A stretch of DNA of 64,000 nt from the NCBI GenBank assembly GCA_902572475.1, contig CACGGB010000001.1, forward strand, positions 103,557 through 167,556. Direction: 5' to 3'. The number at the start of each line of letters is the position of its first letter. Positions within the stretch are counted from its first letter, which is position 1. The notes under the pieces were generated by a model. That model did not search any database. It was not told the DNA's origin and saw nothing but the letters and a program-made list of their open reading frames with translations. This stretch comes from an uncultured Pelagibacteraceae bacterium (GTDB lineage Bacteria > Pseudomonadota > Alphaproteobacteria > Pelagibacterales > Pelagibacteraceae). A program made the translations under genes and the position numbers. Shown one piece after another: positions 2,386 through 20,329 of this stretch.

Positions 2386-3312
2386 TTAAGCGTTGACTAC
2401 TAATCCGATTGATTGATTTTGAGGAGTTTTTTCGATTAATTTTTCTTCTTTAACTTCTATTTCGATACAAGATTGCTTACTAGTGAAAATTTTTTTTAAA
2501 AATGAGTTTGTTAAAAGATGTCCTCCTTGCTCACAAACTACTTTACCAAGAATTCTATATCCCGATAAAACAAAATCTCCCGCTAGATCTAGAATTTTGT
2601 GGTTCACAAATTCTTTTTCATTTCTCAAACCGTTCTTATTTAGTAATTTATTATTTCCAACAACAATCGCATTATCCAAAGAACCCCCTTTTGCTAATCC
2701 AAGTTTTTTAATTTTTTCAATATCTTCAAAAAGACAGAAAGTTCTCGAGTTATAAATTTCTTCTAAGTCATCTGTTTCGAAATTGACTATATTTCTTTGC
2801 TTACCAATAATTTTATTATCGTAATTTAATTTAAAATCTACCTCCAAAGCAGATTCATTCGGCTCTATTGAAATCTTTTTTTTATCTTCAATCAATTCAA
2901 TCTTGTTTATTATCTTCAGATATTTTATTTTATTTTTAAGTGTCTTTATTTCAGTTTTATTTAAAGCATCTATAAAATTTTTAGCTGATCCATCCATAAT
3001 TGGAACTTCTTCATTATTAATTTCTATAATAGCATTATCAATGTTAGCAATATAAAGAGCTGCAAGTAAGTGCTCTACAGTTGAAACCTTAACGTCTTTT
3101 TCATTTTTCAAGGTTGAACATAATTTAGCAGATGAAACGTTTGCATAATTTGCCTTGACTAGGTTATTTTTTTTCAGATCTACTCTTTTAAAAACTATTC
3201 CTTGATCACCTTCTGCAGGAAGAATAGTGATTTTTGTATGTACACCTGAATGAAGTCCGACGCCCTCAAAACTTACTGGAGTACTTATAGTAGTTTGGTA
3301 AATTCTTAACAT
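2386..3312 (-). CDS. lpxC: UDP-3-O-acyl-N-acetylglucosamine deacetylase LpxC (start re-assigned to internal ATG at 3312; listed ORF extends to 3375)
   Basis: MLRIYQTTISTPVSFEGVGLHSG, STVEHLLAAL, PIMDGSAKNF, FVNHKILDLAGDF motifs. Confidence 0.95.
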   Translation of the reverse strand: MLRIYQTTISTPVSFEGVGLHSGVHTKITILPAEGDQGIVFKRVDLKKNNLVKANYANVSSAKLCSTLKNEKDVKVSTVEHLLAALYIANIDNAIIEINNEEVPIMDGSAKNFIDALNKTEIKTLKNKIKYLKIINKIELIEDKKKISIEPNESALEVDFKLNYDNKIIGKQRNIVNFETDDLEEIYNSRTFCLFEDIEKIKKLGLAKGGSLDNAIVVGNNKLLNKNGLRNEKEFVNHKILDLAGDFVLSGYRILGKVVCEQGGHLLTNSFLKKIFTSKQSCIEIEVKEEKLIEKTPQNQSIGLVVNA

Positions 3313-3378
3313 TGGAGGTTTTATACATAATTTTGTCGTAGCTCTTAAAACAACTAATGTTTCTAAAAATAACAAAAA

Positions 3379-4575
3379 TTAATTAAAAATTTTGTCAAAG
3401 AATCTTGATATTACTGACTTTTTCTTCTTAACTATGGGAAGTGCTTCTTTCTTCCACCCATAATGAACAATTCTAATAGCTGAGTTGTAAATGTCACTTA
3501 AAGAAAAGTCACTTGTAAATTTAAGATTAAATTGATCTTTTTTTGAAAAATTTTTTTTATAGTATTCACGAAAACAATTTAAATTAGATTGATCATTTAT
3601 TTTTAAAAAAATAGATAAATTGTTTTCTAAAAAACTAATGACATTAATATTCTTATAAATTATAACTTCAGATAATTCTTCTATTCTTGCTTTCGCAACA
3701 TCAAAAATTAATTTTTTTCTTATTTTTCTAAAGTTTTGAGTTCCAAAAAATTCTTTTTCAACAATCTCTGAGTCTAAATCTTTGTCTGAAAACTTTAAAC
3801 TAAGCAGAATTTTTTTAACTGTTTGGCTATTTAAGCCAATAACTTTTGAAATATCATTCAATATAACATTTGATCCAAATTTAAAGTTTTGAATTAATTT
3901 TAATGCTGAATTCTCAAAATAAATTATTTCAGTATCATTCTCATTAATTTGAATTTTTAAAAAAGTTTCAAGATTTAAATTTTTGTTTATAATGTTCACA
4001 CCATCTAAAAATTTTTTTGATATTACTCTTTTTAATCTTAAATTACAGTTTTCTAACACTTTATTTAAATTTTTATAATCATTGTTCTCAATTAAAATAA
4101 AAGACAGTTCTTGGCTGTAGAGATTACCAAATAATCCTATTGGCAAATTATCTATTTCTTTTTTATCTAAAATATATTTTGAATTTAATATATGAAGAAT
4201 TTTTTTTTGATTTTCAACCTCACTTATTTTTAACTTTAGTTGATTAAGTATATATGTAATGTTTTCTTTACTCAATTGTGATCCATTGAGTTTTTTAAAA
4301 CCTGTAAAGTTGATAGCACAACTTTCAAAACAATCTGCAACAAAAATAACTTCTTTAAAAATGAAATTAATTTTTTGTTCAATTAAATAAACATTCTCTT
4401 TAATTATATCGCTTACTAATTTAAGATCGCTAATCTTTTTATCACTAATACCTTGAATAGGTTTTTTAATTGTATGAACTAATTCCAAATTTTTATTTTC
4501 ATTTAAATCACCGGCAATAAATATAAACTCAGAATTATTTACCTCGATAAATAAAATTGGTTCTCGAACTGACAT
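3379..4575 (-). CDS. ftsA: Cell division protein FtsA, highly divergent (ATP-binding motifs degenerate)
   Basis: 1C-domain signature LPIGLFGNLYSQELSFILIENNDYKNLNKVLENCNLRLKRVI, C-terminal SAIRIVHYG, amphipathic tail VISRFFDKIFN; located after ftsQ in the dcw cluster. Confidence 0.85.
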   Translation of the reverse strand: MSVREPILFIEVNNSEFIFIAGDLNENKNLELVHTIKKPIQGISDKKISDLKLVSDIIKENVYLIEQKINFIFKEVIFVADCFESCAINFTGFKKLNGSQLSKENITYILNQLKLKISEVENQKKILHILNSKYILDKKEIDNLPIGLFGNLYSQELSFILIENNDYKNLNKVLENCNLRLKRVISKKFLDGVNIINKNLNLETFLKIQINENDTEIIYFENSALKLIQNFKFGSNVILNDISKVIGLNSQTVKKILLSLKFSDKDLDSEIVEKEFFGTQNFRKIRKKLIFDVAKARIEELSEVIIYKNINVISFLENNLSIFLKINDQSNLNCFREYYKKNFSKKDQFNLKFTSDFSLSDIYNSAIRIVHYGWKKEALPIVKKKKSVISRFFDKIFN

Positions 4576-4578
4576 TAT

Positions 4579-5238
4579 CTATTTTAAGATAAGTTGATCT
4601 TTTATTCTATAATCAAAAGATTTAAATTGTAGAAAATTTGCTTGATCTTTTAGATTTAAGTAGTTTAATAGGCTTTGACTATAGTTATTAATAGGCAACT
4701 TTATAGTTTGATTCTCTATTGTGACTAAATCCCATCTTTTTGACTCAAATAAATAAAATTTTTTAATCTCGTTTATTGGAAAATTAATTGCTATTAGATT
4801 TTTATAAAAAATTTCAAAACTTTTTTTGTCACCAAAGACTACCGGTAAATTTTTAAATTCTTTTAAATCACTAAAATTTGCTGTTCCTCCGTTACTAGTA
4901 AAAAAAGATTTGATTTTCTTGTTTTGCAAGACAGCTATTGGTTTCTTTTCGAAAACCCTTATTTTAATCTTATTAGGATAGATTTTTTTAATTTCAAAAC
5001 TTTCAATAAAATCTATATCGTTCAATTTTATCTTAATTTTTTTTGAATTTAGTAAAAAAAGATTTGTATCATACAAAAAATCTAAATTTTTTTTTATGTT
5101 TTTTTCATCAACAATATGGTTATTTTCTATAATAATTTTTTTAATAGATAAATTTGGTATTAAACTGAAATTGGTTTGAATCTTATAAGTGCTTAAAAGT
5201 AATAAAAGAAATAAAGCAATTGAAAAACGTTTTTTCAT
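4579..5238 (-). CDS. ftsQ: Cell division protein FtsQ (POTRA domain)
   Basis: Single N-terminal TM; POTRA-like KKIIIENNHIVDEKNIKKNL...IDFIESFEIKKIYPNKIKIRVFEKKPIAV; between ddl and ftsA. Confidence 0.85.
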   Translation of the reverse strand: MKKRFSIALFLLLLLSTYKIQTNFSLIPNLSIKKIIIENNHIVDEKNIKKNLDFLYDTNLFLLNSKKIKIKLNDIDFIESFEIKKIYPNKIKIRVFEKKPIAVLQNKKIKSFFTSNGGTANFSDLKEFKNLPVVFGDKKSFEIFYKNLIAINFPINEIKKFYLFESKRWDLVTIENQTIKLPINNYSQSLLNYLNLKDQANFLQFKSFDYRIKDQLILK

Positions 5239-11933: not shown

Positions 11934-13019
11934 CTACCTTAATTTTAAAGTCGCTAGTCCTACTAGAGCTAAAATTATAGCAATTATCCAAAATCGAATT
12001 ACTATTGTAGACTCTGCCCAGCCCTTTTTTTCAAAATGGTGGTGTATTGGAGCCATTTTGAATATTCTTTTACCAGTTAACTTGAAAGATACGACTTGTA
12101 TAATTACTGAGACTGTTTCTAAAACAAATAATCCTCCTATGATTGCTAACACGATTTCGTGCTTCACAATTATAGCTATTGCAGCTAGAGAACCTCCTAA
12201 AGAAAGAGAACCAGTATCGCCCATGAAAATCTTAGCTGGAGGAGCATTGTACCAAAGAAAACCTAAGCATGAACCAACGACCGATCCACAAAAAATTGAA
12301 AGTTCACCAACTTCTGGGATGTATTGAATTTGAAGATATTCAGAAAAAATTGTATTTCCCACTACGTATGAAATTAATGTAAAAGATAAGGCGACTAACA
12401 TTACTGGAACAGTTGCTAAACCATCCAGTCCATCTGTTAAATTTACAGCATTTGATGCTCCAATAATCACAAAAAGTCCAAATGGAATAAAAAATAAACC
12501 CATTTGCAAAATAAGGTTTTTGAAGAAAGGAAAATATAAATTGTATAGATATTCATGGCTAGAAAACTTAATCAAGATAAATAAAGTTAAGGCTCCAATT
12601 ATTAATTGACCTGCAAATTTATATCTTGATTTTAATCCACTTGAATTTTTGTATTTAATTTTTAAAGTATCATCAAGGAATCCTAAGCCTCCTAGACTTA
12701 ATGAAACAAATATCAATGTCCATACATAAACATTTTTTAAGTCTGCCCAAAGTAAGGTACTTGAAATTATACCAATTATAATTATTACTCCACCCATTGT
12801 AGGTGTTCCAGTTTTCTTGACAATATGATCTATGGGTCCATCTTGCCTTATTGGACCAGTAATCATTTTATCAGAGAACATTTTGATTAAGGGTGCTCCA
12901 ATTAAAAAAACAATTATTAAAGAAGAGATTACTGACAGGCCAGTCCTGAAAGTTAAATATTTGAATACATTTAAAAAAGAATATTGATCAATTAGAGATG
13001 TAAAAAGGTGAAATAACAT
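11934..13019 (-). CDS. mraY: Phospho-N-acetylmuramoyl-pentapeptide transferase
   Basis: GTPTMGG, FLDD, NAVNLTDGLDGLA, FMGDTGSL, PIHHHFEKKGW motifs. Confidence 0.97.
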   Translation of the reverse strand: MLFHLFTSLIDQYSFLNVFKYLTFRTGLSVISSLIIVFLIGAPLIKMFSDKMITGPIRQDGPIDHIVKKTGTPTMGGVIIIIGIISSTLLWADLKNVYVWTLIFVSLSLGGLGFLDDTLKIKYKNSSGLKSRYKFAGQLIIGALTLFILIKFSSHEYLYNLYFPFFKNLILQMGLFFIPFGLFVIIGASNAVNLTDGLDGLATVPVMLVALSFTLISYVVGNTIFSEYLQIQYIPEVGELSIFCGSVVGSCLGFLWYNAPPAKIFMGDTGSLSLGGSLAAIAIIVKHEIVLAIIGGLFVLETVSVIIQVVSFKLTGKRIFKMAPIHHHFEKKGWAESTIVIRFWIIAIILALVGLATLKLR

Positions 13020-15805
13020 TAGTTGCCTTTAATTATTTTTTTAGCAAAATTATTTAGTCCAGTTGCGTTAGATCCTTTAATCATTAAGTAATCATTATTA
13101 GATATAATATTATTTAAAGTAAAATCTACATCTTCTTCATGTTGAAAAATATTGCCCCTTTTATTTATACTTAAACATTTAAAAGTATTCATTGATTTAA
13201 CGCCTTTAATAAAAACTTTATCAATATCTGAATTGTTAATAACTTTAGATAAATTTTTGTGAAGAAATACTGATTTTTTACCTAATTCCAGCATATCACC
13301 CAAAATCAAATATTTTTTAAAATTTAATTTTTTTATATTATTAAAACTATTAATCGCGTTTTTCACAGAAAGTGGATTTGAGTTATAGCTTTCATCGATC
13401 AATTTAAATTTTTTGTTATATCTTTTAATCGTATGAATTTTTCCACGACCTTCAACTGGCTCATATGTTCTAAATTTTTTTATAATTTTTTGTATGTTTA
13501 AATTTAACTCACTTAACAATGCTAGAGAGGAAAGAACATTATAAATATTTATATTTTTTATTTCAAAATTAAAAATTTGTTTTTTTACTTTAATTAATAT
13601 TTTTATTTTATTATAATTTTTTTTAATCGAAATTGGATGAATATCTGACATTTTGCTCATTCCAAATGTAACTATATTTAAATTTTTCAATTTTGCTTTT
13701 GATTTTAAATAATGAAAAAACTTGTCATCTTGATTTAAAATTATTGTGCCATTTTTTTGAATATTGTTAATTATCTCTCCTTTAGCCCTAGCTATACCTT
13801 TTATATTTTTAAAGTTTTCAATATGTGCTTCACCGATATTTGTTATGATTCCTATGTTAGGTTTGATAAGTTTGGTAAGGGAATTTATTTCACCTGGTTT
13901 ACTCATACCAACCTCAAACACACCATAACTATGGTTTGGTGTTAAAAGAGATAAACTTATGGGCACACCGTATTGATTATTATATGATTTTGGAGAATGT
14001 AGTGTTTTTCCAAAATTTTGAAGTAAATCTTTGATAAGATTTTTCAAAGAAGTTTTTCCAGCGCTTCCTGTTATAGCAATAATCTTAGCTGATGAGTATT
14101 CTCTCTTCTTTGTAGCAAATGCATTTAAAAAATTGATTACATTATTTACTTTAATTGTTTTTTTTTTGAATCTTTTTATTTTTTTACTAGTAATAATATA
14201 TTTTGCTCCTTTTTTTAATGCTTTCGGTATAAAACTTGTTCCATCATTATTTTTACCTTTAATTGTTAAAAAAAGATTATCTTTTTTAATTTCTCTTGAA
14301 TCGATAGCTAGTCCGTGAAAATTTTTTAATTTTTTTGCTTTTATTATATTTTTTAAAATTTTTTTATTTTGCAAAAATTTTTGATTTTGATTTGTAAGAG
14401 TTTTAATATTAACCTTTAGATTTTTGACTATTCTCCTGTCTGAAATTTTAATAATCTTATCCTTGTAAATTTGTTCTTCTTCATGACCCTTTCCGGCGAT
14501 TAAGATAATTTCATTTGGATTTGCATTTTGTATTGAGGTTCTTATTGCCATCGCTCTATTAGCGATGTTAAAGCAGTTGATATTTTTTATATATTTTAAA
14601 ACATCTTGCCTGATCTTTTCTGGTCTTTCATTTCTCGGATTATCATCTGTAATAAATATTTTTTTACAATTTTTATCTGCTATCCTTGCCATTAACGATC
14701 TTTTCTTAAAATCTCGATCACCCCCACATCCAAATACCAAAGAAATATTGTTTCCGTAGCTAGACTTTAGAGCAGAAAGTGTTTTATGAAGAGCATCAGG
14801 AGTATGAGCAAAATCCACGAATACTCTGATATTGTTTGGAAAAGTCCTGACATGCTCTAATCTACCATTTACGTCTTTTAATTTATCTAAAATATTAAAA
14901 ATTTTTTTTTCTGATAAATTACATAATTTAGCTGCTGAAATTGCCATTGATAAATTCTTTAATTGAAACTCATTTAAAAAATTAACTTTTTTATCTTTTT
15001 GTAATTTATTCATAAGAGGGTTTATGTCGATTAAATTAAGTTTTTTTCTTTTTGATATTTTTTCTAAGTTAGAAAATTCTTTTATTGAGCTGTCAGAAAT
15101 TACTGTTTTTCTTTTATTGAGTATATTGTTAAATAAAATCATTTTAGCTTTTAAATAAGATTGCATAGTTTTATGATAATCAAGATGGTCTTGACTAAAA
15201 TTTGTAAATATACCAGCTTTAATATCTAAATGATCAATTCTGTTTTGAAACAAGCCATGACTTGAAGCTTCAATAATAACGTTGTTTATATCTTTTTTTT
15301 TAATTTTTTGAAGAGCATCGTGCAAGACTATAGTGTCAGGGGACGTTAAATTATTTTTAATTATTTTTTTTTTGTATTTAATACCTAATGTGCCTATAGA
15401 TGCTACTGGTATATTATTTAATCTTAAAATTTGAAAGAATAAATCAGCTACTGAAGTTTTTCCGTTGGTCCCAGTTACTGCTATAATATTTTTTGGCTTC
15501 AATTTGTAAAAATCGGAACATACTTTACCCAAAAAATGTCTGGTATTTGCAGTTTTTATGACCGGTATTTCTTTATGTTTATATTTACAGTTATTAGCGC
15601 AAACAATTGCTACTGCACCTTTTTTAATTGCTTCATCAATATATTTTTCACCATTAAAGTTTTTGCCTTTAATTGCAAAAAACACATATCCTTTCTTCAT
15701 TTTTTTACTATTATTTGAAATTCCGTAAATCTTTAATTTTTTTTTTTCTTTTGGAAGATTTTTAATTATTTTTTGCAGCAACATAATTTTCATTAAAGTC
15801 TTCAT
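13019..15805 (-). CDS. murE-murF: Fused MurE-MurF (mDAP-adding ligase + D-Ala-D-Ala-adding ligase); true start probably internal Met near 15784
   Basis: One 928-aa ORF with two Mur-ligase modules: AVTGTNGKTSVADLF ... TDDNPRNERPE (DNPR = mDAP-type MurE), then LAIDSREIKKDNLFLTIKG ... AITGSAGKTSLKNLI ... LIDESYNSNPLSVKNAI (MurF). Confidence 0.93.
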   Translation of the reverse strand: MKTLMKIMLLQKIIKNLPKEKKKLKIYGISNNSKKMKKGYVFFAIKGKNFNGEKYIDEAIKKGAVAIVCANNCKYKHKEIPVIKTANTRHFLGKVCSDFYKLKPKNIIAVTGTNGKTSVADLFFQILRLNNIPVASIGTLGIKYKKKIIKNNLTSPDTIVLHDALQKIKKKDINNVIIEASSHGLFQNRIDHLDIKAGIFTNFSQDHLDYHKTMQSYLKAKMILFNNILNKRKTVISDSSIKEFSNLEKISKRKKLNLIDINPLMNKLQKDKKVNFLNEFQLKNLSMAISAAKLCNLSEKKIFNILDKLKDVNGRLEHVRTFPNNIRVFVDFAHTPDALHKTLSALKSSYGNNISLVFGCGGDRDFKKRSLMARIADKNCKKIFITDDNPRNERPEKIRQDVLKYIKNINCFNIANRAMAIRTSIQNANPNEIILIAGKGHEEEQIYKDKIIKISDRRIVKNLKVNIKTLTNQNQKFLQNKKILKNIIKAKKLKNFHGLAIDSREIKKDNLFLTIKGKNNDGTSFIPKALKKGAKYIITSKKIKRFKKKTIKVNNVINFLNAFATKKREYSSAKIIAITGSAGKTSLKNLIKDLLQNFGKTLHSPKSYNNQYGVPISLSLLTPNHSYGVFEVGMSKPGEINSLTKLIKPNIGIITNIGEAHIENFKNIKGIARAKGEIINNIQKNGTIILNQDDKFFHYLKSKAKLKNLNIVTFGMSKMSDIHPISIKKNYNKIKILIKVKKQIFNFEIKNINIYNVLSSLALLSELNLNIQKIIKKFRTYEPVEGRGKIHTIKRYNKKFKLIDESYNSNPLSVKNAINSFNNIKKLNFKKYLILGDMLELGKKSVFLHKNLSKVINNSDIDKVFIKGVKSMNTFKCLSINKRGNIFQHEEDVDFTLNNIISNNDYLMIKGSNATGLNNFAKKIIKGN

Positions 15806-18823: not shown

Positions 18824-20329
18824 TTAAAATTTTTGTCTTCTTAAAAAAGCAGGTATCTCAAAGTCTTCGTCTTCATCGGTTTCTTGATCAAAAAGCTGCT
18901 GGGTCTCCTCGTTTTGGTCAAAGTTTTCTGACCCTGAATTCTCTTGACTTTGCTCATCTGAGAAGAGCATTGGAGTACTTTCCTCTTCTCTTGTGTTGTA
19001 GATTTGATTATTATCTGCTAATTCCATTTCATCAATTTTAGTATCTGAATTATTTTCCATATAAGATGCGCTTTCAATGGAAACTCCGGCTGGAATTTCC
19101 TCGTTCAAGCGTTTTTGAGATAATGTTGCTTCAGAGGTGCTATTTTCCTCATTGATCTCAAAACTATCTATTAAAGCGTTTTGTTCTTCGTTGCTTTTTA
19201 TCTCATAACTCTCATCTAGTTTTAAAGCATTAGCTCCATCAATAGAATTAACTATATTTTGGTCAATATTTGTTCTAGAAAATAAATTGTCTGAATAATT
19301 ACTGTTTCTGCCATTAGATCCACTTACCACATTTAAAACTGGTTTAGGATCTGGAGTGATTGTAGCTCCTTTTAAAGAGGTTGCTACAATAGAGACTCTA
19401 ATTTTCCCGTTCATATTTTCATCTTTTATCGCACCAAATATTAATTCAGCTTCGGGATCAACTTCGGCTCTTATCTTGTTAACTGCTGCATCTACTTCGA
19501 AAAGTTTGATATCACTACCACCTGTAATGTTTACAAGTAAACCTTTTGCGCCTTGTAAAGTATATTCATCGATAAGCGGATTGTTCAAAGCTAATTCTGT
19601 AGCAGCCATGGCTCTATTTTCTCCCTCTGCTTCACCTGTTCCCATCATTGCTTTCCCGCTAGAACTCATTACAGTTTCAACGTCTGCAAAGTCTAAATTT
19701 ATCATTCCAGGTCTTACCATAAGATCTGTAATACTCTGTACACCATGTTTCAGCACATCGTTGGATAAACTAAAAGACTCTTCAAAGCCAGTAGACTCAT
19801 TAGCTATTTTAAAAAGATTTTGATTAGGAACAACAATCGTAGTATCCAAATGTCTTTTTAATTCTTCAAGACCTGAGGTAGCTCTTCTCATTCGTTTTGG
19901 ACCTTCATATGCAAAAGGTAATGTCGTTACACCAACAGTTAATATATTCATTTCTCTCGCTGCTTTAGCAATTACGTGCGATGCTCCAGTCCCAGTTCCC
20001 CCTCCCATGCCTGAAGCTATAAAAACCATGTTGCTACCTTGAATATAGTTTACGATTTCATTGATTGACTCATCTGCAGCTGCTTGACCAATATCATGTT
20101 TGGCACCGGCACCAAGACCTTTTGTTAAATTCATTCCTATTTGTATTTTTGCATCTGCCTTACTCATTTTAAGATCCTGTGCATCAGTATTTACAGCTAC
20201 AAACTCTACACCTTGCATACCAGCTTCTATCATAGCATTTATTGCATTACCGCCAGCGCCACCAACTCCTATAACTAAAATTCTAGGTTTTAGTTCTCTC
20301 AGTTCTCCTCCCCCAACATTTATACTCAT
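18824..20329 (-). CDS. ftsZ: Cell division protein FtsZ
   Basis: ILVIGVGGAGGNAINAM, GMGGGTGTGASHVIAK, NLDFADVETVMSSSG; C-terminal peptide EDFEIPAFLRRQKF. Confidence 0.98.
   Translation of the reverse strand: MSINVGGGELRELKPRILVIGVGGAGGNAINAMIEAGMQGVEFVAVNTDAQDLKMSKADAKIQIGMNLTKGLGAGAKHDIGQAAADESINEIVNYIQGSNMVFIASGMGGGTGTGASHVIAKAAREMNILTVGVTTLPFAYEGPKRMRRATSGLEELKRHLDTTIVVPNQNLFKIANESTGFEESFSLSNDVLKHGVQSITDLMVRPGMINLDFADVETVMSSSGKAMMGTGEAEGENRAMAATELALNNPLIDEYTLQGAKGLLVNITGGSDIKLFEVDAAVNKIRAEVDPEAELIFGAIKDENMNGKIRVSIVATSLKGATITPDPKPVLNVVSGSNGRNSNYSDNLFSRTNIDQNIVNSIDGANALKLDESYEIKSNEEQNALIDSFEINEENSTSEATLSQKRLNEEIPAGVSIESASYMENNSDTKIDEMELADNNQIYNTREEESTPMLFSDEQSQENSGSENFDQNEETQQLFDQETDEDEDFEIPAFLRRQKF

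Follow-up and report, generated by a model that had tools for sequence, protein, structure and literature searches.

In model bacteria, the ATP cycle and the polymerisation of FtsA are regarded as key to what this protein does. Canonical FtsA, as represented by the structures from E. coli (7Q6D), T. maritima (1E4F and 4A2A) and S. aureus (3WQU), is encoded in the dcw cluster beside ftsQ, has a fold of subdomains 1A, 1C, 2A and 2B, and carries a conserved arginine in 2B and an amphipathic helix at the C-terminus. As the structure of T. maritima FtsA with the FtsZ tail (4A2A) shows, this tail is bound by subdomain 2B. SepF is a membrane anchor of FtsZ which needs no nucleotide and whose fold is unrelated to that of FtsA. 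In structures, 1C makes the lateral contact of the double filament and binds the FtsN tail (PMC7613929). An actin-like ATPase fold has been described in T. maritima YeaZ as having lost a function of its family (PMC2954210); its role is unrelated and is not that of a cytoskeletal membrane adaptor.

Here we describe an FtsA from an uncultured Pelagibacteraceae bacterium, encoded in a stretch of 64,000 nucleotides which is referred to below as the window. The protein shares with canonical FtsA the position beside ftsQ, the predicted 1A/1C/2A/2B fold, the 2B arginine and the C-terminal amphipathic helix. In contrast, it lacks the phosphate-1, phosphate-2 and adenosine motifs, scores below the NCBIfam and Pfam cut-offs, and contains only 11 glycines in 398 aa. 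The original prediction, made from the sequence of the window, was that of an FtsA which had lost all three ATP-binding motifs and had become a nucleotide-independent tether; it named profile alignment, AlphaFold modelling and a survey of related genomes as checks, and a second canonical ftsA as a finding that would speak against it.

Gene Context and Family Assignment

The left end of the window is occupied by a dcw cluster of division and cell-wall genes on the minus strand, in the order mraZ, ftsZ, rsmH, ftsL, ftsI, a murE-murF ORF, mraY, murD, ftsW, murG, murC, murB, ddl, ftsQ, ftsA, lpxC and bamD. The slot order ftsQ-ftsA-lpxC was found both in the window and in the SAR11 loci in which both flanks were present.

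2386..3375, minus strand: lpxC, the downstream synteny anchor (LpxC, E 1.3e-91)
3379..4575, minus strand: ftsA, 398 aa, FtsA fold without nucleotide-binding motifs (from the ORF, TIGR01174, AlphaFold2 and Foldseek)
4579..5238, minus strand: ftsQ, the upstream synteny anchor (POTRA_1, E 1.6e-11)

Within the same cluster murE and murF form a single ORF of 928 aa (13019-15805), and related loci carry similar ORFs of 919-948 aa.

FtsA was the only family to which the 398-aa ORF gave a strong match (TIGR01174, E 2.1e-28), with a score of 99.5 bits which lies under the model cut-off of 175.85. Both Pfam families named for the profile check were matched below their gathering scores, PF14450 (FtsA) with 16.1 against 31.8 and PF02491 (SHS2_FTSA) with 21.7 against 25.4. 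The AlphaFold2 model, built from the window protein and 78 relatives, confidently predicted an FtsA fold (pLDDT 87, pTM 0.82; the linker at residues 376-386 being of low confidence), in which 1C/SHS2 replaces subdomain 1B of actin. When this model was searched with Foldseek the best matches were all FtsA, with 7q6g and 7q6d on top (E 5e-23, TM 0.61), and the nearest solved structures were the FtsA proteins of Xenorhabdus, E. coli, S. aureus, Vibrio and Thermotoga. On the basis of dcw synteny, the profile match, the FtsA structural neighbours and graded intermediates in related groups, the window ORF is orthologous to FtsA: it is an FtsA by descent and not a member by the curated profile models.

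Loss of the Three Nucleotide-Binding Motifs

The window FtsA was aligned with E. coli FtsA and with 30 canonical alphaproteobacterial FtsAs, and the motif positions were found to be occupied by LFIEVNNSEF (phosphate-1), FLKIQINENDTEIIYF (phosphate-2) and SIFLKINDQSNL (adenosine).

4516..4554, minus strand: degenerate phosphate-1 loop, residues 8-20, in which the acid (E11) persists while glycine and lysine are gone (alignment)
3916..3966, minus strand: degenerate phosphate-2 loop, residues 204-220, which includes KIQINENDTEIIYF (alignment)
3571..3618, minus strand: lost adenosine motif, about residues 320-335 (alignment)

At the E. coli columns G16, K19, G212, G336 and G337 the canonical residue was present in 30/30 canonical sequences each, and D210 in 29/30; the window FtsA has N, E, Q, N, N and D at G16, K19, D210, G212, G336 and G337, respectively. 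The loss does not depend on the alignment, since GG doublets, which number 6.5 per canonical FtsA, were absent from 85/86 FtsAs of the window's genus and present in a single one (1/86). The column and doublet counts thus uphold the predicted loss of all three motifs, each at the place given for it, with one departure in detail: the residue equivalent to E. coli E14 is still acidic (E11).

That ATP is still bound, through a pocket rebuilt from other residues, is improbable. In favour of such a pocket are the intact predicted fold and the Mg-proximal acid, which most members retain as E11, but G16, K19, D210, G212-G214, G336 and G337 are all replaced in the window clade, mostly by variable residues. 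Furthermore, no new conserved glycine loop was seen, and among the motifs the adenosine region has the lowest mean column conservation (0.45). The loss of nucleotide binding within a retained FtsA fold is well supported by the alignment and the predicted structure, although the acid equivalent to E. coli position 14 persists and part of the old pocket could still hold a ligand. In E. coli, FtsA carrying E14R or D210A did not support growth (PMC10213515); as D210A fails there, the loss of D210 in the window FtsA points to a different mode of action.

Fixation in the Clade and Selection

The named relatives of the window genome comprise SAR11 single-cell genomes together with HIMB058, TMED128 and SAG-MED28; of these, SAG-MED28 has been placed in subclade IIa.B and HIMB058 called distant from Ia.3 (PMC7542561). 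The loss of the three motifs proved to be fixed, being observed in 86/86 sequences of the window's genus (g1) and in 2/2 of its sister genus (g9). A full FtsA ORF of 376-402 aa was present in 79/80 named-genome loci, the remaining contig being only 896 bases long.

A decaying and nearly dispensable ftsA on its way to being lost would fit the fast divergence within the genus (38-57% identity) and the repeated truncation in related genomes. We regard this as very unlikely, because frames were intact in every full-length relative and dN/dS was 0.11-0.34 in close pairs of window-clade ftsA; 17 columns were also invariant across 79 window-clade sequences. The intact ORFs in 79 relatives and the same dN/dS values likewise exclude a sequencing error or pseudogene.

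Each genome of the genus carries one FtsA. No second ftsA was found in a profile search of genome G000 (58% complete) and of relatives, including those at least 90% complete; the other FtsA-profile matches were partial, covering only about positions 170-346 (MreB-like) or 243-354 (DnaK-like), and the second canonical copy that would have spoken against the prediction was thus not encountered.

FtsA Erosion across SAR11

Six genera of the window's family and another family of the same order were compared. The triple glycine of phosphate-2 was lost in every SAR11 group sampled. Phosphate-1 (LDIGS or LDLGS) and part of the adenosine loop persist in genera g5, g7 and g8. In the sister family IDIRADK and LTGYGAK are mostly retained, and the g6 long forms have I/FDxG in the phosphate-1 position together with a GxGS-like loop. 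Among the groups compared, all three motifs were lost only in g1 and g9. For placement of these groups a five-protein tree was used and not the FtsZ tree, which was weak owing to long outgroups; g1 and g9 formed one clade (100/100), and complete motif loss therefore needs only one event. By sequence, FtsA is eroding across the order Pelagibacterales/SAR11. No report of such changes in SAR11 FtsA was found in the open literature searched, in which subscription journals and preprints were lightly covered.

A Co-varying Glu11/Lys187 Pair at Mg-Proximal Positions

The magnesium of E. coli FtsA has residues E14, S84, A188 and D210 in its vicinity (PMC10213515). The window clade has mostly E, D/N/E and K at the first three of these positions and a variable residue at the fourth.

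4015..4017, minus strand: K187, aligned with the Mg-proximal residue A188 of E. coli and co-varying with E11 (4543-4545)

E11 and K187 occurred together in 67/79 sequences, and 70/79 combined an acidic residue 11 with a basic residue 187 (K or R). Residue 187 was acidic in four sequences, where residue 11 was K, S, N or still E; one of them, K11/D187, is a full charge swap. This co-variation, in which the independent exceptions are few, suggests that a Glu11-Lys187 salt bridge possibly replaces the nucleotide in the old cation site.

A Short FtsA without Domain 2

Genus g6, probably Pelagibacter proper, is the largest genus sampled and has closed genomes of 1.2-1.5 Mb. Many g6 genomes gave no FtsA profile match and instead carried an ORF of 215-250 aa in the ftsQ-lpxC slot (45 sequences), a count which is not an unbiased frequency since the genomes were picked for absence of an FtsA match. 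This mini-FtsA sits at the same locus as the window FtsA and has in common with it what is left of 1A, as well as 1C and an amphipathic tail. It differs in the absence of subdomains 2A and 2B, and the long forms of its own genus have recognisable phosphate-1 and adenosine motifs. Alignment with the g6 long forms (E 8e-38) showed a clean deletion of domain 2, with 1A-1C joined directly to the GFFEKFF helix. By HHalign the mini-FtsA matched the window clade (E 2e-18) and g5/7/8/9 (2e-17), and one form of 244 aa passed the Pfam SHS2_FTSA cut-off and matched TIGR01174 over the first half only. Relocation of domain 2 to another site was ruled out, as it was found in 0/10 mini-FtsA genomes versus 4/4 long-form controls.

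In the five-protein tree the short forms fell in three places among the long forms, for a minimum of three changes. As one placement is ambiguous, the tree is taken to indicate that domain 2 was deleted at least twice separately, provided that the domain was never regained.

Retained Parts of the Window FtsA

The original prediction had held that 1C was recognisable and that an amphipathic helix remained at the C-terminus. Both were confirmed, and the 2B helix was retained with them.

4087..4326, minus strand: subdomain 1C/SHS2, around residues 84-163, ahead of all other subdomains in conservation (column mean 0.75)
3655..3717, minus strand: 2B helix, residues 287-307, in which R297 and E300 are invariant; counterpart of the helix that binds the FtsZ tail
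3436..3459, minus strand: GWKKEALP, residues 373-380, a conserved clade-specific motif before the membrane helix
3382..3420, minus strand: C-terminal amphipathic helix KSVISRFFDKIFN, probable membrane anchor (hydrophobic moment 0.62)

Mean column conservation in 1A, 2B and 2A was 0.57, 0.55 and 0.52, respectively, and 42% of the 1C columns were at least 90% identical. R297, which aligns with E. coli R300, was present in 86/86 sequences of the window's genus and in 30/30 canonical alphaproteobacterial FtsAs. In the motif GW(K)KEA(I/V/L)P, residues G373, W374, E377, A378 and P380 were invariant in 79 sequences. The AlphaFold2 model places a helix at 388-397, within the C-terminal tail.

FtsZ and Other Division Proteins

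The FtsZ tail EIPAFLRRQKF, said to be kept, is indeed encoded at the end of ftsZ.

18824..20329, minus strand: ftsZ, placed mraZ-ftsZ-rsmH, with the tail EIPAFLRRQKF at 18827-18859

This gene lies at the head of the dcw cluster, between mraZ and rsmH, and not after ftsA, an arrangement common to all members of the window's family that were checked. Mini-FtsA genomes, although their FtsA is devoid of the tail-binding subdomain, also have an intact FtsZ tail (EIPAFLRRQ; read in nine genomes).

With respect to a replacement tether, no SepF match was obtained in 24 SAR11 genomes, nor did the window FtsA match Pfam SepF. ZapA is present. A search for FtsN through its SPOR domain identified none, the two SPOR matches examined being RlpA-like lipoprotein-like ORFs beside a lytic-transglycosylase-like ORF.

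Probable Mode of Action

We consider it fairly probable that the FtsA of the window clade, the only FtsA in the SAR11 lineage to which HIMB058 and SAG-MED28 belong, is a pseudo-actin that has the four-subdomain fold, neither binds nor hydrolyzes ATP, and acts as a nucleotide-independent adaptor. This assessment draws on the motif loss and its fixation in the clade, the intact frame under purifying selection, the predicted fold, and the retention of 1C, the 2B helix and the tail. The C-terminal helix would hold FtsA on the inner membrane with no on/off or polymerisation cycle driven by ATP, 2B would bind the FtsZ tail, and 1C would bind FtsN-like or other late-division partners, while the Glu11-Lys187 pair would probably fill the former Mg/phosphate site and lock one conformation. 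The two parts of the predicted nucleotide-independent tether fared differently: loss of nucleotide binding in a kept fold was sustained, and the sequence and model make a nucleotide-independent adaptor likely; tethering of FtsZ is plausible only, on the strength of the retained 2B helix with invariant R297.

FtsZ tethering may also not be essential, because 2B is conserved no better than 1A or 2A, and sister genomes do without it. A rather unlikely alternative is that SAR11 retains FtsA chiefly for its membrane-anchored 1C, which recruits or activates septal synthesis, with tethering by 2B being vestigial and now the task of a different protein. Conservation is indeed far higher in 1C than in the other subdomains, and domain 2 has gone from the short g6 forms; however, R297 and E300 are invariant in the window's clade, the FtsZ tail is kept, and the search for SepF gave no replacement tether. 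As relatives discard 2B and keep 1C and the membrane helix, relay by a membrane-anchored 1C may nevertheless be the core job of the protein. A broader proposal, to which we give somewhat less than an even chance, is that in SAR11 the actin machinery of FtsA is undergoing dismantling along two independent routes, loss of the ATP site within a retained fold in one branch and at least two separate deletions of domain 2 in another. Membrane-anchored 1C would then be the irreducible function, and another partner would hold or couple FtsZ by reading its conserved tail.

With the pseudo-actin reading for the window clade, it appears that free-living bacteria which are highly abundant in the sea divide by means of an FtsA devoid of an ATP site, and relatives of the clade by means of one that has no FtsZ-binding half, which suggests that only part of the actin-like FtsA is needed for division. 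SAR11 FtsAs thereby offer natural tests of which activity is essential: FtsZ tethering, polymerising, or the 1C relay to septal synthesis. In many SAR11 genomes the protein will escape annotation pipelines.

Outside SAR11, G282, a member of the class that is 93% complete, gave no FtsA profile match. Two other small-genome Alphaproteobacteria (L215 and L213) had very low FtsA profile scores, with degraded motifs in L215; since such genomes also show degraded FtsA motifs, the erosion may be broader than SAR11.
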